Below, piece after piece: positions 4,702 to 10,424 of a stretch of DNA of 22,798 nucleotides. Origin of the DNA: a virus; the IMG/VR virus record IMGVR_UViG_3300037071_001544, positions 1 through 22,798 of that record, one strand, 5' to 3'. The translations under genes were made by a program, and so were the position numbers. Every line of letters begins with the position of its first letter. Positions within the stretch are counted from its first letter, which is position 1. The notes beneath the pieces were generated by a model that did no database searches, was not told where the DNA came from, and saw nothing but the letters and a program-made list of their open reading frames with translations.

Positions 4702-4983
4702 CTAAACTATGCGGATGAATCCCGCATGGACAAGCGGCGATTCGGGGTAAGCCTGAAGACGAACCCCGACATGCCAGTAGCCTCGAGTGAGCCCTTCGGT
4801 GAAGAACCCAATCTGGCCATCCAGCGTAGCCACGTCCTGGGGCAGTGCGTCGAGAAACGCCTCACCCTTTGGAACGATGACGTACTGGACTCCAGTGGTC
4901 ACAGGAGTAACCACCTCATCAACCGTCTTAGTCACAATGATTGGCTGGAACTCATTCGAGCCGAATATGTAAGCGTTGGTCAT
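4702..4983 (-). CDS. Small hypothetical, probably structural protein
   Basis: A 93-residue, mostly beta protein (QPIIVTKTVDEVVTPV, GVQYVIVPKG, WHVGVRLQAYPESPLVHAGFIRIV). It starts at an ATG that shares a base with the stop of the big repeat fibre gene (TAATG), with AGGAGAG eight bases upstream. It ends 10 bases before the endolysin. The pattern and position suggest a small virion or tail-tip accessory protein, but I do not recognise the family. Confidence 0.6.
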   Translation of the reverse strand: MTNAYIFGSNEFQPIIVTKTVDEVVTPVTTGVQYVIVPKGEAFLDALPQDVATLDGQIGFFTEGLTRGYWHVGVRLQAYPESPLVHAGFIRIV

Positions 4984-7373
4984 TACGACTCTCCTAAGTC
5001 AGCGTTCCATCGTCGGGGAAGTGATGCGTCCCATTGTCCTACGCGAGTGACAAGGTCAGCGTTGTAGCGTGCCATTCCAAGCGAGCCCAATATGAAGTCG
5101 GGCATAGCCTCATTATGCGTCGTCGCTGTCAATACGCCAGCACCCGAGAGTTCGACGATGACAGACATCTCAGACACCGCTGCAGCGTTTAGCGTACCGA
5201 CGCCTGACAGTGTGCCTGTCGCAGTGATCGACGATGTAGCAGACGCCGACAGAGTGCCAGTACCGCTGAGCGATCCTGTTGCTGTCTTGGCTGTTGATGC
5301 AGTGCCAGACAACGTGCCTGAACCACTGAGCGACACGGCGCGTGAGTAGCCAGGTTTAGCTGTGCCAGTCAGCGTGCCTTCGCCGTCCAGGTTCACCGAG
5401 ACGCTGCCGGCGCTTGATGCGTCAGCCGTTGCAGACAGTGTGCCTTCACCCGACAGGTTACCTGTGCGCGAGACACTCGGTGTGGTCGATGCAGTAAGTG
5501 CGCCCGACCCGGACAGGTTGACCGTACGTGCGAAGCTGGGTACTCCCACACCAGACAGTGTACCTGTTCCACTCAGTGTACCTGTTTTGGTGAACCCAAC
5601 AATGCGCGTTGAAGTCAACGTGCCCGAGCCGGACAGTGTGCCGCTAGCGTTAGCCGCGGGAGCTCGTGTGCTGGTCAGTGTGCCTGAGCCAGACAGGTTT
5701 GATGTGACGGCGACATGCTTGCTCGCAGTCGCAGTGAGTGTGCCTGAGCCTGACAGCGACCCAGTCTTCGCAAAGCCAGCAACGCGTGTCGAGCTGAGCG
5801 TACCTGAACCTGACAGGCTTGCCGACCGCGTGTAACCCGGCGTCGAGGTTCCCGTAAGAGTGCCAGACCCAGACAGCGACGCAGCCCGAGCGAACCCAGG
5901 GGTAGCCGACCCAGTCAATGTACCCGAGCCGGACAGCGAAGCAGATCGAGCGAACCCTACGACCCGAGTAGATGACAACGTGCCCGAGCCTGAGAAAGCA
6001 GCCGTGGGTTTTGCTGACATCCCCGTTTGTGTGGGGGCCAGCGTACCCGAGCTAGAGAACTGACCATAGGCACCATTAGCCCCCAGGGGCGTGATGGGTG
6101 TTGAGATGGTTGTCAGGGTGACGTTATCCATCGACCACGTGCCTTGATTGCCAGCTTCCGGCGAACCTAGCCACACATTGTTGATGGTTGTAGTTATGAG
6201 ATAATCGGCGGGTGCGTCACTGGCGTCAAGATACTGGACACCATCGACCCACACATGCGGAACACCATTGGTGCCCCACACAACCTTCATGTAGACCCAC
6301 TGGTTTAGTTCGAGCCTCAGCCCAAACGGGATGTACCAGGAGCCAATGCCGTCAGCCTTGGTTACCCGAAGCCAGAGATTGAATCCCGAAGCGATCTGGT
6401 TCTGCCGATAAACGTCAGCGACCCGGGTGCTGCCCCAGTCGAAGCGGCAGAAGGGTACGTTGGAATCAACGACACCCTCAGCGCTTACCTTCCACCAGCC
6501 TTCGATGGAGACTTGCTGCACACCAGGACTGATGGTGTATGAGAACCCAGCCTTGTCTATCGAGGTTGACGGCACGGTAGCACCGATGCCCAGGATGGAC
6601 TGGTACGTGTCGGCGGCTGAGTTAGTAGCCGTGCCCGCGCCAGCAGTCGTGGGAGTCCAGATTCCCAAGCTCGATTCAAAAGTCTCGAGCATTGTGGTGA
6701 TTACGGCCGGACCCCCGGTGGCTTCATTCAGTGCGAAGGACACACCGAACGCACCAGTGGTAGAGCCCGCTGGGTTGGCCTGCCGGGTGCCTGTAGCAGA
6801 GTTAGCCGTCACAGCCTGATAGGCAATCAGGTGGCCAGCGTTGGTTGCCCCAGTAGCCTTGCCATTAGCTTCGGCGACCGTGGTCATTCCAGCTGACAAG
6901 CTAGAGAAAGGTGTCAGGTACGCACCATTGGTTGCGCGGCGGCCCGTGAATACACAGACAAGATGCGTGCTGCTGGGTGTGATCGTCGGAGCAATTAGCG
7001 TGGTTGCGCCCGAGGCGGCCTGCGTGACAGATGCCGCTGTGTTGACGAAAGTTCCAGGGTCAGCGCCCGACACCTTGACGGGGGTGGCAGCCACACGTCC
7101 ACTCGTGGTGGTGACAGCAACGCTCCCATCGCCTGAGACCCATTTCCGGTAGAAGATAGCGTGAGACATGGACGTAGAGCCGTTGACAGAGTTCGTGTCT
7201 GCCAGGATGTTAGTCCAGCCTGCAGGAGTGGTGACGGTAGAGTTGGTGGCGTTACATGAAACGAAGATGATGGTGTAGTCGCCATCGACCAGGCCAGCGG
7301 GCAATGTGACAGTCGTGCTGGTCACGCTGCCCGTAGATTCGACGGAGGTGCCCGCTGTAAGAGTTAGAGCCAT
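4983..7373 (-). CDS. Tail fibre with lectin-like domain and sixteen 20-aa repeats
   Basis: A 796-residue virion protein. Residues 1-220 are a beta-rich N-terminal domain (GDYTIIFVSCN, AGWTNIL, SGADPGTFV) of a type seen in other phage surface proteins. Residues 228-421 resemble a concanavalin/LamG-type sheet domain (FESSLGIWTP, ISIEGWWKVS-like strand, WVYMKVVWGTNGVPHVWVDG, WSMDNVTL). Residues 438-755 consist of sixteen units of about 20 residues, each beginning with LSGSGTL or a close variant; one unit has 22. A 40-residue C-terminus with three Trp/Tyr positions ends the protein. It probably binds surface glycans as a fibre or minor tail protein. AGGGAGG lies 4 bases before the ATG. It stands behind a hairpin (7392-7421). 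Repeat length may vary between relatives by recombination. Confidence 0.8.
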   Translation of the reverse strand: MALTLTAGTSVESTGSVTSTTVTLPAGLVDGDYTIIFVSCNATNSTVTTPAGWTNILADTNSVNGSTSMSHAIFYRKWVSGDGSVAVTTTSGRVAATPVKVSGADPGTFVNTAASVTQAASGATTLIAPTITPSSTHLVCVFTGRRATNGAYLTPFSSLSAGMTTVAEANGKATGATNAGHLIAYQAVTANSATGTRQANPAGSTTGAFGVSFALNEATGGPAVITTMLETFESSLGIWTPTTAGAGTATNSAADTYQSILGIGATVPSTSIDKAGFSYTISPGVQQVSIEGWWKVSAEGVVDSNVPFCRFDWGSTRVADVYRQNQIASGFNLWLRVTKADGIGSWYIPFGLRLELNQWVYMKVVWGTNGVPHVWVDGVQYLDASDAPADYLITTTINNVWLGSPEAGNQGTWSMDNVTLTTISTPITPLGANGAYGQFSSSGTLAPTQTGMSAKPTAAFSGSGTLSSTRVVGFARSASLSGSGTLTGSATPGFARAASLSGSGTLTGTSTPGYTRSASLSGSGTLSSTRVAGFAKTGSLSGSGTLTATASKHVAVTSNLSGSGTLTSTRAPAANASGTLSGSGTLTSTRIVGFTKTGTLSGTGTLSGVGVPSFARTVNLSGSGALTASTTPSVSRTGNLSGEGTLSATADASSAGSVSVNLDGEGTLTGTAKPGYSRAVSLSGSGTLSGTASTAKTATGSLSGTGTLSASATSSITATGTLSGVGTLNAAAVSEMSVIVELSGAGVLTATTHNEAMPDFILGSLGMARYNADLVTRVGQWDASLPRRWNADLGES
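5109..6062 (-). repeat. Tandem 60-bp coding repeats, about 16 copies
   Basis: The array encodes L-S-G-[SETVA]-G-T-L plus 12-13 variable residues per unit. Units are in frame with a 60-base period; the protein motif is kept better than the DNA, so the array is old or under purifying selection. Copies differ mainly at the 'T(S/G)TRVxGFAR' half of the unit. It is a protein-coding repeat, not a CRISPR. Confidence 0.9.
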
Positions 7374-7391
7374 TGTTCCTCCCTAAAGAAT

Positions 7392-7421
7392 GGGGCCCGG
7401 CATCAGAAGACACCGGACCCC
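7392..7421 (-). terminator. Intercistronic hairpin behind the metallophosphoesterase
   Basis: GGGGCCCGG (7392-7400) and CCGGACCCC (7413-7421) pair at 8 of 9 positions around a 12-base loop. On the transcribed strand it is followed by ATTCTTTAG, a weak T run. It fills most of the 60-base gap and could be a leaky terminator or an mRNA end stabiliser. Confidence 0.5.
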
Positions 7422-7433
7422 ATCACTGTTGTA

Positions 7434-8981
7434 CTACGGGCGGGTACCACTATCGGTGTTGGTCATGTTGCCCGAGGTCGGAACGAAGTTCCAGCTGTAG
7501 GAACCATCGGACTTCAGGCTCATACGCAGGTGACCCCAGGAGTCGGAGAACCGATTCTGGATGTACGCAGGGTTGTCGGTAAACGCACGGAGGGTAATGC
7601 CACCGGTGGATACCTGGAACTGCTGCATCCCATCGGCCACACACTGATCCGCGTTGTTCACGGGGCAGCTGCGTTCGTAGTTGTGCTGTGATCCGGAGAA
7701 CAGAACCTTCACCCGGTTCTTCCAGAACATGTCGATCCAGGGCTTGTGTTCAAACGCCCGGTCGTGGGAGCTGGTCTTCGAAGTGAAGTACGGCTCGTGG
7801 TACACAACGGCGAGGTGCTTGCCCGCAGCCTTAGCGGCCATCAGGTCGGCATCCATTTCGGAAGTGATCGCGTTCGCCTTGGGCACGTCGTAACGCCACA
7901 GCGCAGACGGAGCAACCAGGATGTGCCAGTTCCCCTTGTCGAAGGAGTACCAGTTCTGGTTCTCCTGGAACGTGCCAGCAGGGTTGGGACCCTTACGAGT
8001 CGGGTCGGTGCTGGTCGCGGACTTCACCGTATCGACACAGCCTCCGTCCATGTAATCGTCGAGGTCAGTGTTGCGACCCGGCTGGTAGTCATGGTTCGGT
8101 GCGGCAGTCCAGTACGTCTTGTCCTTGAACGATCCCCATTGGGTGTGGTACTTGGAGTAGTGGTCGTTTGCGGGATTGGATGAACCGGAGAGTCCGCAGT
8201 GACCGATGCTGTACTGGAAGTCACCGAGACCGAAGAAGTTATCAACCTCACCGGACGCGAGCGCGTTCTTGATGCTGATGGCGTTCTTGCCCGACTCGGT
8301 GGTAGCTGCACTGTGCCCGGACGGGTTCATGTCACCAACGATGGCGAAGTCCCAGTCACCGCCGGTGGGCGGAGGGGTCGTTTCCGTCGGAGTGGGCGTG
8401 GGTGTCGGGGTCGGGGTGCCATCGGGTTCAGTGACGATGACGAGCTGGGGCTTCAGCGCAGGGTCGGTGTTTTCCTTGGACTTGAAGCCGATCCATTTCT
8501 GTGCGTTGGATTCGAGCTTGAAGTTGGTGTACCCGCCGTTCGCGCCAACCCAAGTCGTCACGTCCCATTCAACCCATGAGCCGACAGCGAAGTTCCCCTG
8601 CTTACCGAGCCAGGTGCTACGAGCGGGCGCGTTGTTCCAGTTGACGCCAGCTTCGGTCCATGATCCATTGGTGCCATAGACGTCTACGAATTCAGTTGAG
8701 GTCGTTGCTGACTCCGAGTAAGCACGAAGCTTTGCGGAGACCACCTTCTCGCCTGCGGGAACTACTACGTTGAATCGAATCAGTGAGTTACGCCAAATGT
8801 CGGTTCGACCCTCAGTGGACCATCGGACGCTTGCGCCGAAGTTCTCAGTGGGCTTGTCGTACTGCACGTAGGTATCGGCGGTGGGAGTAAACACCGTAGT
8901 TCCGGCAGCGAACGCCATGGGGGCGATGCTACCAGCGAGGAGGAGTGCGAGTGCTGCGAGCACCGCAAACAGTTTCTTCAT
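7434..8981 (-). CDS. Secreted CBM96/DNRLRE-metallophosphoesterase
   Basis: The 515-residue product starts with a clear Sec signal peptide: MKK, a hydrophobic core (4-20) and an AFA-A cleavage site near residue 25. Residues 29-183 match the DNRLRE/CBM96 beta-sandwich (ADTYVQ, LIRFNV, GSWTEAGVNWNNAP, VEWDVTTWV, FKSKENTDPALKPQLVI), a carbohydrate-binding type. A TP-repeat linker follows (189-207). Residues 210-500 are a calcineurin-like phosphoesterase: GD (D217), GLGD (D254), NHD (296-298), YHEPY (H395) and GSQHNYER (H433). In related enzymes the last motif is GHxH; here the first His is Ser431, so the metal site may be altered. Cysteines 262, 315, 439 and 447 could form disulfides outside the cell. 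The start at 8981 has AGGAAG 3 bases upstream; a longer reading from 9164 would bury the signal peptide. Substrate unknown. Confidence 0.85.
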   Translation of the reverse strand: MKKLFAVLAALALLLAGSIAPMAFAAGTTVFTPTADTYVQYDKPTENFGASVRWSTEGRTDIWRNSLIRFNVVVPAGEKVVSAKLRAYSESATTSTEFVDVYGTNGSWTEAGVNWNNAPARSTWLGKQGNFAVGSWVEWDVTTWVGANGGYTNFKLESNAQKWIGFKSKENTDPALKPQLVIVTEPDGTPTPTPTPTPTETTPPPTGGDWDFAIVGDMNPSGHSAATTESGKNAISIKNALASGEVDNFFGLGDFQYSIGHCGLSGSSNPANDHYSKYHTQWGSFKDKTYWTAAPNHDYQPGRNTDLDDYMDGGCVDTVKSATSTDPTRKGPNPAGTFQENQNWYSFDKGNWHILVAPSALWRYDVPKANAITSEMDADLMAAKAAGKHLAVVYHEPYFTSKTSSHDRAFEHKPWIDMFWKNRVKVLFSGSQHNYERSCPVNNADQCVADGMQQFQVSTGGITLRAFTDNPAYIQNRFSDSWGHLRMSLKSDGSYSWNFVPTSGNMTNTDSGTRP

Positions 8982-8988
8982 TGACTTC

Positions 8989-9333
8989 CTAGCTCTGTGT
9001 GTAGGTGAAGGTAACAGCCAGCGTGCCCTGGGAGGCGAAGGCCTGGCTGGTGATGGTCGCACCATCAAGGTACGTGCCTGCAGTGAGTGCCGTGTGAACG
9101 CCGATGCCAACAATGGTTGCACCCGAGGGAACGTCGAACGTCGCCGTCGCTGTGATTGTACCATTGGAGGGCGCAGACCAGCTCAGCGCTTTTCGTGCAT
9201 ACGCCGGCGAGCCACCCGAGGGCTCAGTGCCCTGGGTTGCTCCGGGGGCCGTGGTGTAGATTGCTCCGTGAGTAGCGTCAACCCCGTAGTCGGTCGCCAG
9301 GTTATTTTTCTGGGCGGTTGTCTGAATTGCCAT
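8989..9333 (-). CDS. Small tail-fibre-type structural protein
   Basis: A 114-residue protein of a family common in actinophage tail regions: an N-terminal AIQTTAQKNNLATDYG helix, a strand AIYTTAP, the conserved GTEPSGGSPAYARKALSW motif (residues 34-54) and a C-terminal beta part (FDVPSGATIVGIGVHTAL). Such proteins are annotated as minor tail or fibre-associated; the precise role is not known. I chose the ATG at 9333, since AGGAG lies 5 bases before it, and the GTG at 9339 falls within that site. The first 32 bases overlap the end of the upstream membrane-protein gene. Only 7 bases separate its stop from the secreted phosphoesterase. Confidence 0.75.
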   Translation of the reverse strand: MAIQTTAQKNNLATDYGVDATHGAIYTTAPGATQGTEPSGGSPAYARKALSWSAPSNGTITATATFDVPSGATIVGIGVHTALTAGTYLDGATITSQAFASQGTLAVTFTYTQS

Positions 9334-9589
9334 TGTCACTCCTAAAGAGTTGTTGTTCTAGTTTTCGGATGCGAGCTCGTAACTCGTTGTTATCTTTACG
9401 AGCGTCAGCGAGGTTACGCTTCAGCAAGTTTACATAGTCTGTCTCGTAATCGACGGGCAAACCCTGTAAGACTTCGGGCTCCGGCTTTTTCTTCTTCCTC
9501 TTGTTCAGGGCGTCGATGATCCAGGCCCCCACACCGAGGATTAGTGGGGTTACAAGACTGACGAACAGTCCCCACTTTTCCCATTCCAT
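9302..9589 (-). CDS. Small membrane protein with coiled coil
   Basis: A 95-residue protein. Residues 6-26 form a membrane segment (GLFVSLVTPLILGVGAWIID), followed at once by a KRKKKK cluster, which predicts the C-terminus inside the cell. Residues 50-83 (LLKRNLADARKDNNELRARIRKLEQQLF) form a coiled coil. This build resembles some small phage lysis-associated or spanin/holin-like proteins, but it lies among fibre genes and far from the endolysin, so the role is open. It is the third of three consecutive membrane-protein genes. The ATG is at 9589, 6 bases after the upstream stop. Confidence 0.7.
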   Translation of the reverse strand: MEWEKWGLFVSLVTPLILGVGAWIIDALNKRKKKKPEPEVLQGLPVDYETDYVNLLKRNLADARKDNNELRARIRKLEQQLFRSDNGNSDNRPEK

Positions 9590-9595
9590 GACGCC

Positions 9596-10033
9596 CTACG
9601 ACTGGGAGGCTCGGAATCGACGGAGAGCTCGGCGTTCGTAGAAAATCTGGCCCGCTCGGAAGGCGAAGCCAATAAGGAAGATGCTACTGAACCCAAGGGT
9701 GTTGGTCAGCAGCGAACCCTCGGGACGATACCCGAGCAGCAGATACTCGAACCAGCTAAGAAGCGTACAGAGCGTTATGCACGCCCAAAATTCGATGACG
9801 AGTGATGTATCAGGGTCACGTCGCCGAGGCGCCGACAGAGTCGCGTACACCGCTGCAGACGACGAAAGGAATAACAGCGTCGACCATACGTCACTCAGCG
9901 GGTTACCGAGCACATTGTCGACTGTTCCGTTCGGGCTCAGGTTCGTAGTGTAGACAAACCCAGCGAACGCCAGCAGTACGTAGATGACGACGGCGAGGGA
10001 GTTAGTGGGGCTGGTAATGGTAAAGGGTTTCAC
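9596..10033 (-). CDS. Membrane protein, four TM segments
   Basis: A 145-residue protein with four hydrophobic segments at about 13-31, 49-68, 80-101 and 108-130, and a basic C-terminus (ERRALRRFRASQS), which predicts both ends in the cytoplasm. I chose GTG 10033 because GGAGGAG lies 4 bases before it; an earlier in-frame start at 10216 would add 61 low-quality residues that read in the shadow of the upstream gene. It overlaps the upstream gene by 32 bases, in another frame. Function unknown. Its similarity in layout to the upstream four-TM protein suggests a pair or complex, but no sequence relation is clear. Confidence 0.7.
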   Translation of the reverse strand: MKPFTITSPTNSLAVVIYVLLAFAGFVYTTNLSPNGTVDNVLGNPLSDVWSTLLFLSSSAAVYATLSAPRRRDPDTSLVIEFWACITLCTLLSWFEYLLLGYRPEGSLLTNTLGFSSIFLIGFAFRAGQIFYERRALRRFRASQS

Positions 10034-10424
10034 GTTTCTCCTCCGCCCAGCAAATGACTTGAGTGAAGATTGAAATCCAACCCAGCGCAACGAATGCCCA
10101 CACCAGGGGGCTGATTCCATTTGCCAACGACAGCAAGCCGAAGACAATGAAGACACCCCCGAGCATGAGCGCGGGTAACTGCGCGTAGCTTGGTTCAACC
10201 AGGACACTGATGACAAGCGCAGTGCTTGCCACCAGGAAGATCACACCCCAGGCAACCGGCGACACGTACAGGAAGTTCGTAGCCAGCATCTGATAATTCA
10301 AGAACGTGTCCGGGGCGGACAACAGCGAAAGGCCGATGCCGGCGCCACCCAGAAAGAGGATGACGCCGAGCACCTGTGCAGTTCCGTGTCGTGCTGCTCG
10401 CATAAGCAGGCCTTTCAAACTCAT
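10002..10424 (-). CDS. Membrane protein, four TM segments
   Basis: A 140-residue protein with hydrophobic segments at about 13-37, 53-77, 82-104 and 105-128, a basic N-terminus and a charged C-terminal tail (WAEEKRETLYHYQPH). The ATG at 10424 overlaps the stop of the tail-spike gene as ATGA, so translation is coupled. No catalytic motif is seen. In late phage operons, such proteins can be holin-like, superinfection-exclusion or envelope-modifying factors; nothing in the sequence selects one of these. It heads the three-gene membrane cluster. Confidence 0.72.
   Translation of the reverse strand: MSLKGLLMRAARHGTAQVLGVILFLGGAGIGLSLLSAPDTFLNYQMLATNFLYVSPVAWGVIFLVASTALVISVLVEPSYAQLPALMLGGVFIVFGLLSLANGISPLVWAFVALGWISIFTQVICWAEEKRETLYHYQPH

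Follow-up and report, generated by a model that had tools for sequence, protein, structure and literature searches.

A candidate exported CBM96 protein with a PAP-fold domain in the tail and lysis region of an actinobacterial siphophage

The window analysed here is a 22,798-nucleotide stretch of viral DNA (IMG/VR record IMGVR_UViG_3300037071_001544, positions 1 to 22,798) from an actinobacterial siphophage. Amid the tail-fibre and lysis genes of this virus lies a phosphoesterase gene on the minus strand (7434..8981), which codes for a 515-amino-acid protein composed of a predicted signal peptide, a CBM96 domain, a TP linker, and a PAP-fold domain. The gene starts with an ATG at 8981, which carries an SD-like AGGA sequence 5 nucleotides on its 5′ side, and ends with a stop codon at 7434. 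A start codon at 9164, the limit of the program-made ORF, was rejected because it would create an overlap with the upstream gene (8989-9339), whose stop codon is located 7 nucleotides before the ATG at 8981. This upstream gene matches a virion protein PHROG. A sequence-only reading of the locus had described a late-operon setting, and the genes nearby agree with this description, as they code for the tail tube, the tape measure, a Gp37-like tail protein, the spike, small hydrophobic proteins, and an M23-amidase endolysin. Between the spike and phosphoesterase genes is a row of three small proteins with hydrophobic stretches (9302-10424), which are possibly lysis membrane proteins.

Downstream on the same strand is a partner gene (4983..7373), which codes for a 796-amino-acid repeat protein whose first ~220 residues are common to the three phages compared below. 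A central run of many short repeats (GTLSGSGTLT...) differs among these phages behind the same N-terminal domain. A terminator-like hairpin on the minus strand (7382..7424) follows the phosphoesterase stop codon and includes 16 pairs and a U-rich tail (-29.9 kcal/mol, z -4.5). The hairpin was missed by a pattern scan, and no counterpart was seen by eye in the two divergent phages L003 and L004.

The N-terminus of the protein reads MKK-LFAVLAALALLLA-GSIAPMAFA/AGT, in which MKK is followed by an uncharged hydrophobic run of 13 residues and then by an A-F-A/A site. We assign residues 1-25 (MKKLFAVLAALALLLAGSIAPMAFA/A; 8907..8981, minus strand) as a putative Sec-type signal peptide, based on a rule-based score and on equivalents in L003, L004, and the bacterial homologues. 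The score uses our own rules rather than SignalP, and considers a basic n-region, an uncharged h-region, and small residues at -3/-1. Only 0.025% of shuffled N-termini reach the score of the 515-residue protein, and a single other window protein, of 140 amino acids (10002-10424), received any signal call (22 proteins scored). The signal peptides of the three phages are 35-42% identical, yet they retain the form of their n-, h-, and c-regions. Thus, by rule-based score and preserved form, the protein appears to carry the cleavable signal peptide found in phage envelope proteins exported by Sec, as had been claimed from the sequence. Cleavage at AFA-A had also been proposed, and a site after A25 fits, although the rule-based score favours a site after A20.

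The remaining domains occur in the order proposed earlier, with profile matches and a predicted fold in agreement. Residues 28-183 (8433..8900, minus strand) form a CBM96/DNRLRE domain that matches Pfam PF24517 (E 1.6e-27, 96.8 bits against a cut-off of 26) and NCBIfam NF033679 (E 5.9e-26, 91.5 bits against a cut-off of 34). A Thr-Pro linker follows at about residues 188-207 (8361..8420, minus strand). Protein alignment, the blastn break, and Pfam matches in relatives mark this linker as the site of a GH16 domain, which is located between the CBM96 and PAP domains in the 739-749-amino-acid proteins of L003 and L004 (Pfam). GH16 is missing from the window copy, where the blastn match breaks off cleanly at the linker (8415-8417). 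An assembly fault is an unlikely cause of this absence, as a second contig (G001) agrees with 99.93% identity over the whole window. Bacterial relatives carry GH16 as well, and the simplest interpretation is therefore that the window lineage lost it.

The C-terminal PAP-like metallophosphoesterase domain (residues 208-515; 7437..8360, minus strand) is supported by alignment, an AlphaFold2 model, PDB matches, and a profile search. On its own sequence, this region has no Pfam match, including to Metallophos (PF00149); PF00149 is matched by 21 of 56 aligned relatives. A tblastn search with the domain matched bacterial metallophosphoesterases, and a sequence-based profile search of the PDB returned PAPs only (E 2.6e-22). 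The structure prediction suggested in the earlier reading, made from the 56-row alignment, gave a model with a mean pLDDT of 92.7, and the first 31 structural matches in the PDB are PAPs (E values down to 3.7e-15, query TM-scores 0.63-0.71). We regard both the predicted PAP fold and the export signal as solid.

The predicted metal site departs from that of PAPs at one position. For mapping we used the ligand numbering of kidney-bean PAP (KBPAP), in which H323 is an M2 ligand. Six members of the seven-ligand set (D, D, Y, N, H, H, H) are kept in the window protein as D217, D254, Y257, N296, H395, and H433, and His297 is the equivalent of the catalytic acid, whereas Ser431 occupies the position of H323. 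The protein thus resembles kidney bean PAP (1kbp), wheat phytase (6gj9), and mammalian TRAP in its fold and in six of seven metal-ligand positions, but differs from them in carrying Ser for the M2 His of the GHxH motif. This Ser is present in all 37 members (3 phage, 34 bacterial) of the clan to which the protein belongs, whereas 18 of 19 more remote relatives carry His. We rejected decay inside the phage as the origin of the substitution, as 34 of 34 aligned bacterial clan members carry the same Ser. Cys 262, 315, 439, and 447 are invariant in all 37 members, which fits with extracytoplasmic folding of the domain.

Because the M2 ligand is Ser across the whole clan, the PAP-fold domain could be catalytically altered or could be a binding pseudoenzyme. 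In the latter case, the exported protein might be a catalytically dead glycan binder that serves in superinfection exclusion or receptor masking, with the PAP fold as a scaffold. The substitution itself is consistent with this idea, as is the presence of GAP50 of Plasmodium, a PAP-fold anchor protein, among the structural matches of the domain. In the window copy, which is without GH16, CBM96 and the PAP fold are all that would remain. However, the other six ligands and His297 hardly vary within the clan, beyond what a scaffold would need, and the GH16 motif of related copies (ELDYAE or EIDYAE) appears intact. On balance, we consider a dead binder unlikely, though a credible competitor. The clan-wide replacement of a PAP metal ligand and the GH16 domain of related copies also raise the possibility that the protein targets a polysaccharide and not simply a polymer of phosphate.

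The viral carriers of the gene comprise only four IMG/VR contigs, none of which is a cultured phage. One is a near-identical virus (G001, 35 kb; 99.93% over the window) with the same gene, and two are the divergent viruses L003 and L004. A tblastn search of an annotated phage collection returned no relative of the PAP domain, only CBM96-like matches, and a search for near phages that lack the gene returned only a short contig (L103) that ends too soon. The PAP domains of the phages are 80-86% identical, with pairwise dN/dS values of about 0.12-0.17 (NG86). Thus, the gene is maintained by purifying selection in two divergent phages, which counters the concern that it is a random recent insertion in a single phage.

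In all carrier viruses, the next gene codes for a protein that begins with the shared N-terminal domain. At the DNA level, the phages resemble one another over the phosphoesterase gene and the start of this next gene (4983-7373) and over little else, and the first ~220 residues of the partner protein are 63-71% identical. Between the window and the L004 phage, the phosphoesterase is 81% and the partner N-domain 70-71% identical, the spike and endolysin are 53-56% identical, and the tail core proteins are only 24-38% identical. This gradient is compatible with a function linked to a type of host surface that the phages have in common. The L003 phage has only the cassette and a weak endolysin match in common with the window (15 window proteins tested). 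Given that the tail core differs and that L003 shares little beyond the cassette, the gene has probably moved between phages, which perhaps have the same kind of host.

The setting of the gene also brings to mind a tail-borne virion depolymerase or adhesin used for entry, whose hydrophobic N-terminus would be an anchor or a bacterial relic. The phosphoesterase gene begins only 7 nucleotides after the match to a virion protein, its place among the genes of the tail-fibre region is compatible with such a role, and the partner repeat protein may be structural. In addition, CBM96-like domains of other phages occur in annotated pectin/pectate lyases that may be tail enzymes. Nevertheless, the form of the signal peptide is kept in three phages despite sequence change, the invariant Cys residues fit an extracytoplasmic protein, and no tail-attachment or trimerisation domain was found in the 515-residue protein with Pfam or PHROGs. 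A virion role is therefore an unlikely explanation in our estimation.

In a phylogenetic tree, the phage copies form one clade (support 99/99) nested inside Micrococcales proteins, consistent with the earlier proposal of acquisition from a bacterial genome. The phage clade adjoins a protein of Actinotalea sp. Marseille-Q4924 (90/85), followed by proteins of Arthrobacter, Pseudarthrobacter, and Sinomonas. The bacterial homologues whose N-termini were read all have exported-type starts, which are signal peptides (L015, L022, L024), a lipobox (L014, L106), or weaker signal-like or anchor-like starts (L013, L023, L025). Some bacterial copies have the full CBM96-GH16-PAP layout. The Actinotalea, Arthrobacter, and Pseudarthrobacter proteins L013, L015, L022, and L024 share the domains, their order, and the exported-type N-terminus with the window protein (Pfam scan for L013 and L015), and their PAP domains are 67-77% identical to that of the window protein, with the GSQHNYER motif in common. 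They differ in being chromosomal rather than phage-encoded and in the GH16 domain that is missing from the window copy.

The bacterial copies are sporadic, being found in 8 of 245 Arthrobacter-family genomes and 1 of 150 Actinotalea-family genomes. The sister Actinotalea gene adjoins a divergent gene that reads by eye as a LacI-type regulator. We considered whether the homologues could be hidden prophage genes, and rejected this possibility because ORF reading of the surroundings of L013-L016, L022-L025, and L106 suggests ordinary chromosome. When other window proteins were compared with the bacterial loci, no match was found except for the partner N-domain near L025, where a similar region in an Arthrobacter protein is 38% identical over 117 amino acids. 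At this locus (6070-8637, minus strand), the Arthrobacter ORF adjoins a clan member and itself looks like another phosphoesterase; it has a TP linker and ends in a domain resembling the partner N-domain. In Sinomonas mesophila (L023, 4788-10640), three nearby ORFs have very similar N-termini and are possibly tandem clan copies.

Because the closest neighbours of the phage clade are the Actinotalea chromosomal gene and Arthrobacter proteins that are exported and have this layout, capture of the gene from Micrococcales is well supported by the sequence comparisons. A single capture followed by passage among phages would explain the data best. The much greater breadth of the bacterial clan makes transfer in the reverse direction, from phage to bacteria, less likely.

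Related ideas have appeared for other phages. Thermobifida phage P1312 ORF22 is a metallophosphoesterase with a carbohydrate-binding domain encoded directly after tail genes, and its authors proposed that it is secreted and either prevents superinfection or cuts teichoic acid (PMC4569894). The virion mass spectrometry table for P1312 gives no peptides for ORF22, which was reported to carry a signal peptide (PMC4569894). The deposited ORF22 protein (L100, 3359-6649) starts MSVEWVWAGAGTETSVWV, without a hydrophobic run or signal peptide. ORF22 differs from the window protein in being of the PhoD type with CBM4_9. Kayvirus Tgl is a phage envelope enzyme with a signal peptide whose secretion by host machinery has been demonstrated (PMC7150955), but it is a lytic transglycosylase with unrelated domains. 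During infection, T4 Spackle (gp61.3) is exported and its signal sequence is cleaved off, and the protein is thought to block later infection (PMC7650644); it differs in being a small lysozyme inhibitor with a Gram-negative host and no enzyme domain. Thus, exported phage envelope proteins are already known, and a secreted CBM-metallophosphoesterase has already been proposed.

We infer that the infected actinobacterium exports the 515-residue protein via Sec, most likely late in infection. Once outside, the protein would be held on a surface or wall glycan by CBM96, and a polysaccharide there that bears phosphate or is otherwise decorated might be the target of the PAP-fold domain (plus GH16 in related phages). 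The outer envelope or exopolysaccharide would be remodelled before or at lysis, and the most likely benefit would be the clean release of progeny, which would avoid attaching to debris or infected cells. We give this proposal, in which a late protein is exported to modify the envelope, a probability of roughly one half. A PAP fold captured from bacteria could also point to phosphate scavenging, in which a host-derived secreted phosphatase feeds phosphate to the infected cell. However, the location of the gene among late genes argues against such a role, and the glycan-binding domain and the GH16 of relatives point toward a polysaccharide target, making scavenging very improbable.

More broadly, and somewhat more tentatively than for the window protein itself, we suggest that Micrococcales phages have captured a glycan-binding PAP-fold protein of the clan with Ser for the M2 ligand and export it, either alone or fused to GH16, so that the surface of the infected cell is rebuilt from outside ahead of lysis. 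The gene, together with the front of the repeat protein, would form a cassette that moves between unrelated phages. To our knowledge, few phage enzymes leave the infected cell before lysis, and the ways in which phages of Gram-positive hosts avoid trapping on debris or wall polymers have been little studied. The conserved exported cassette makes both pre-lysis export and debris avoidance testable, and the fact that the whole clan has lost one PAP metal ligand while keeping the rest poses a clear question of metalloenzyme chemistry. The gene suggests that a virus may alter the surface of its host ahead of lysis.
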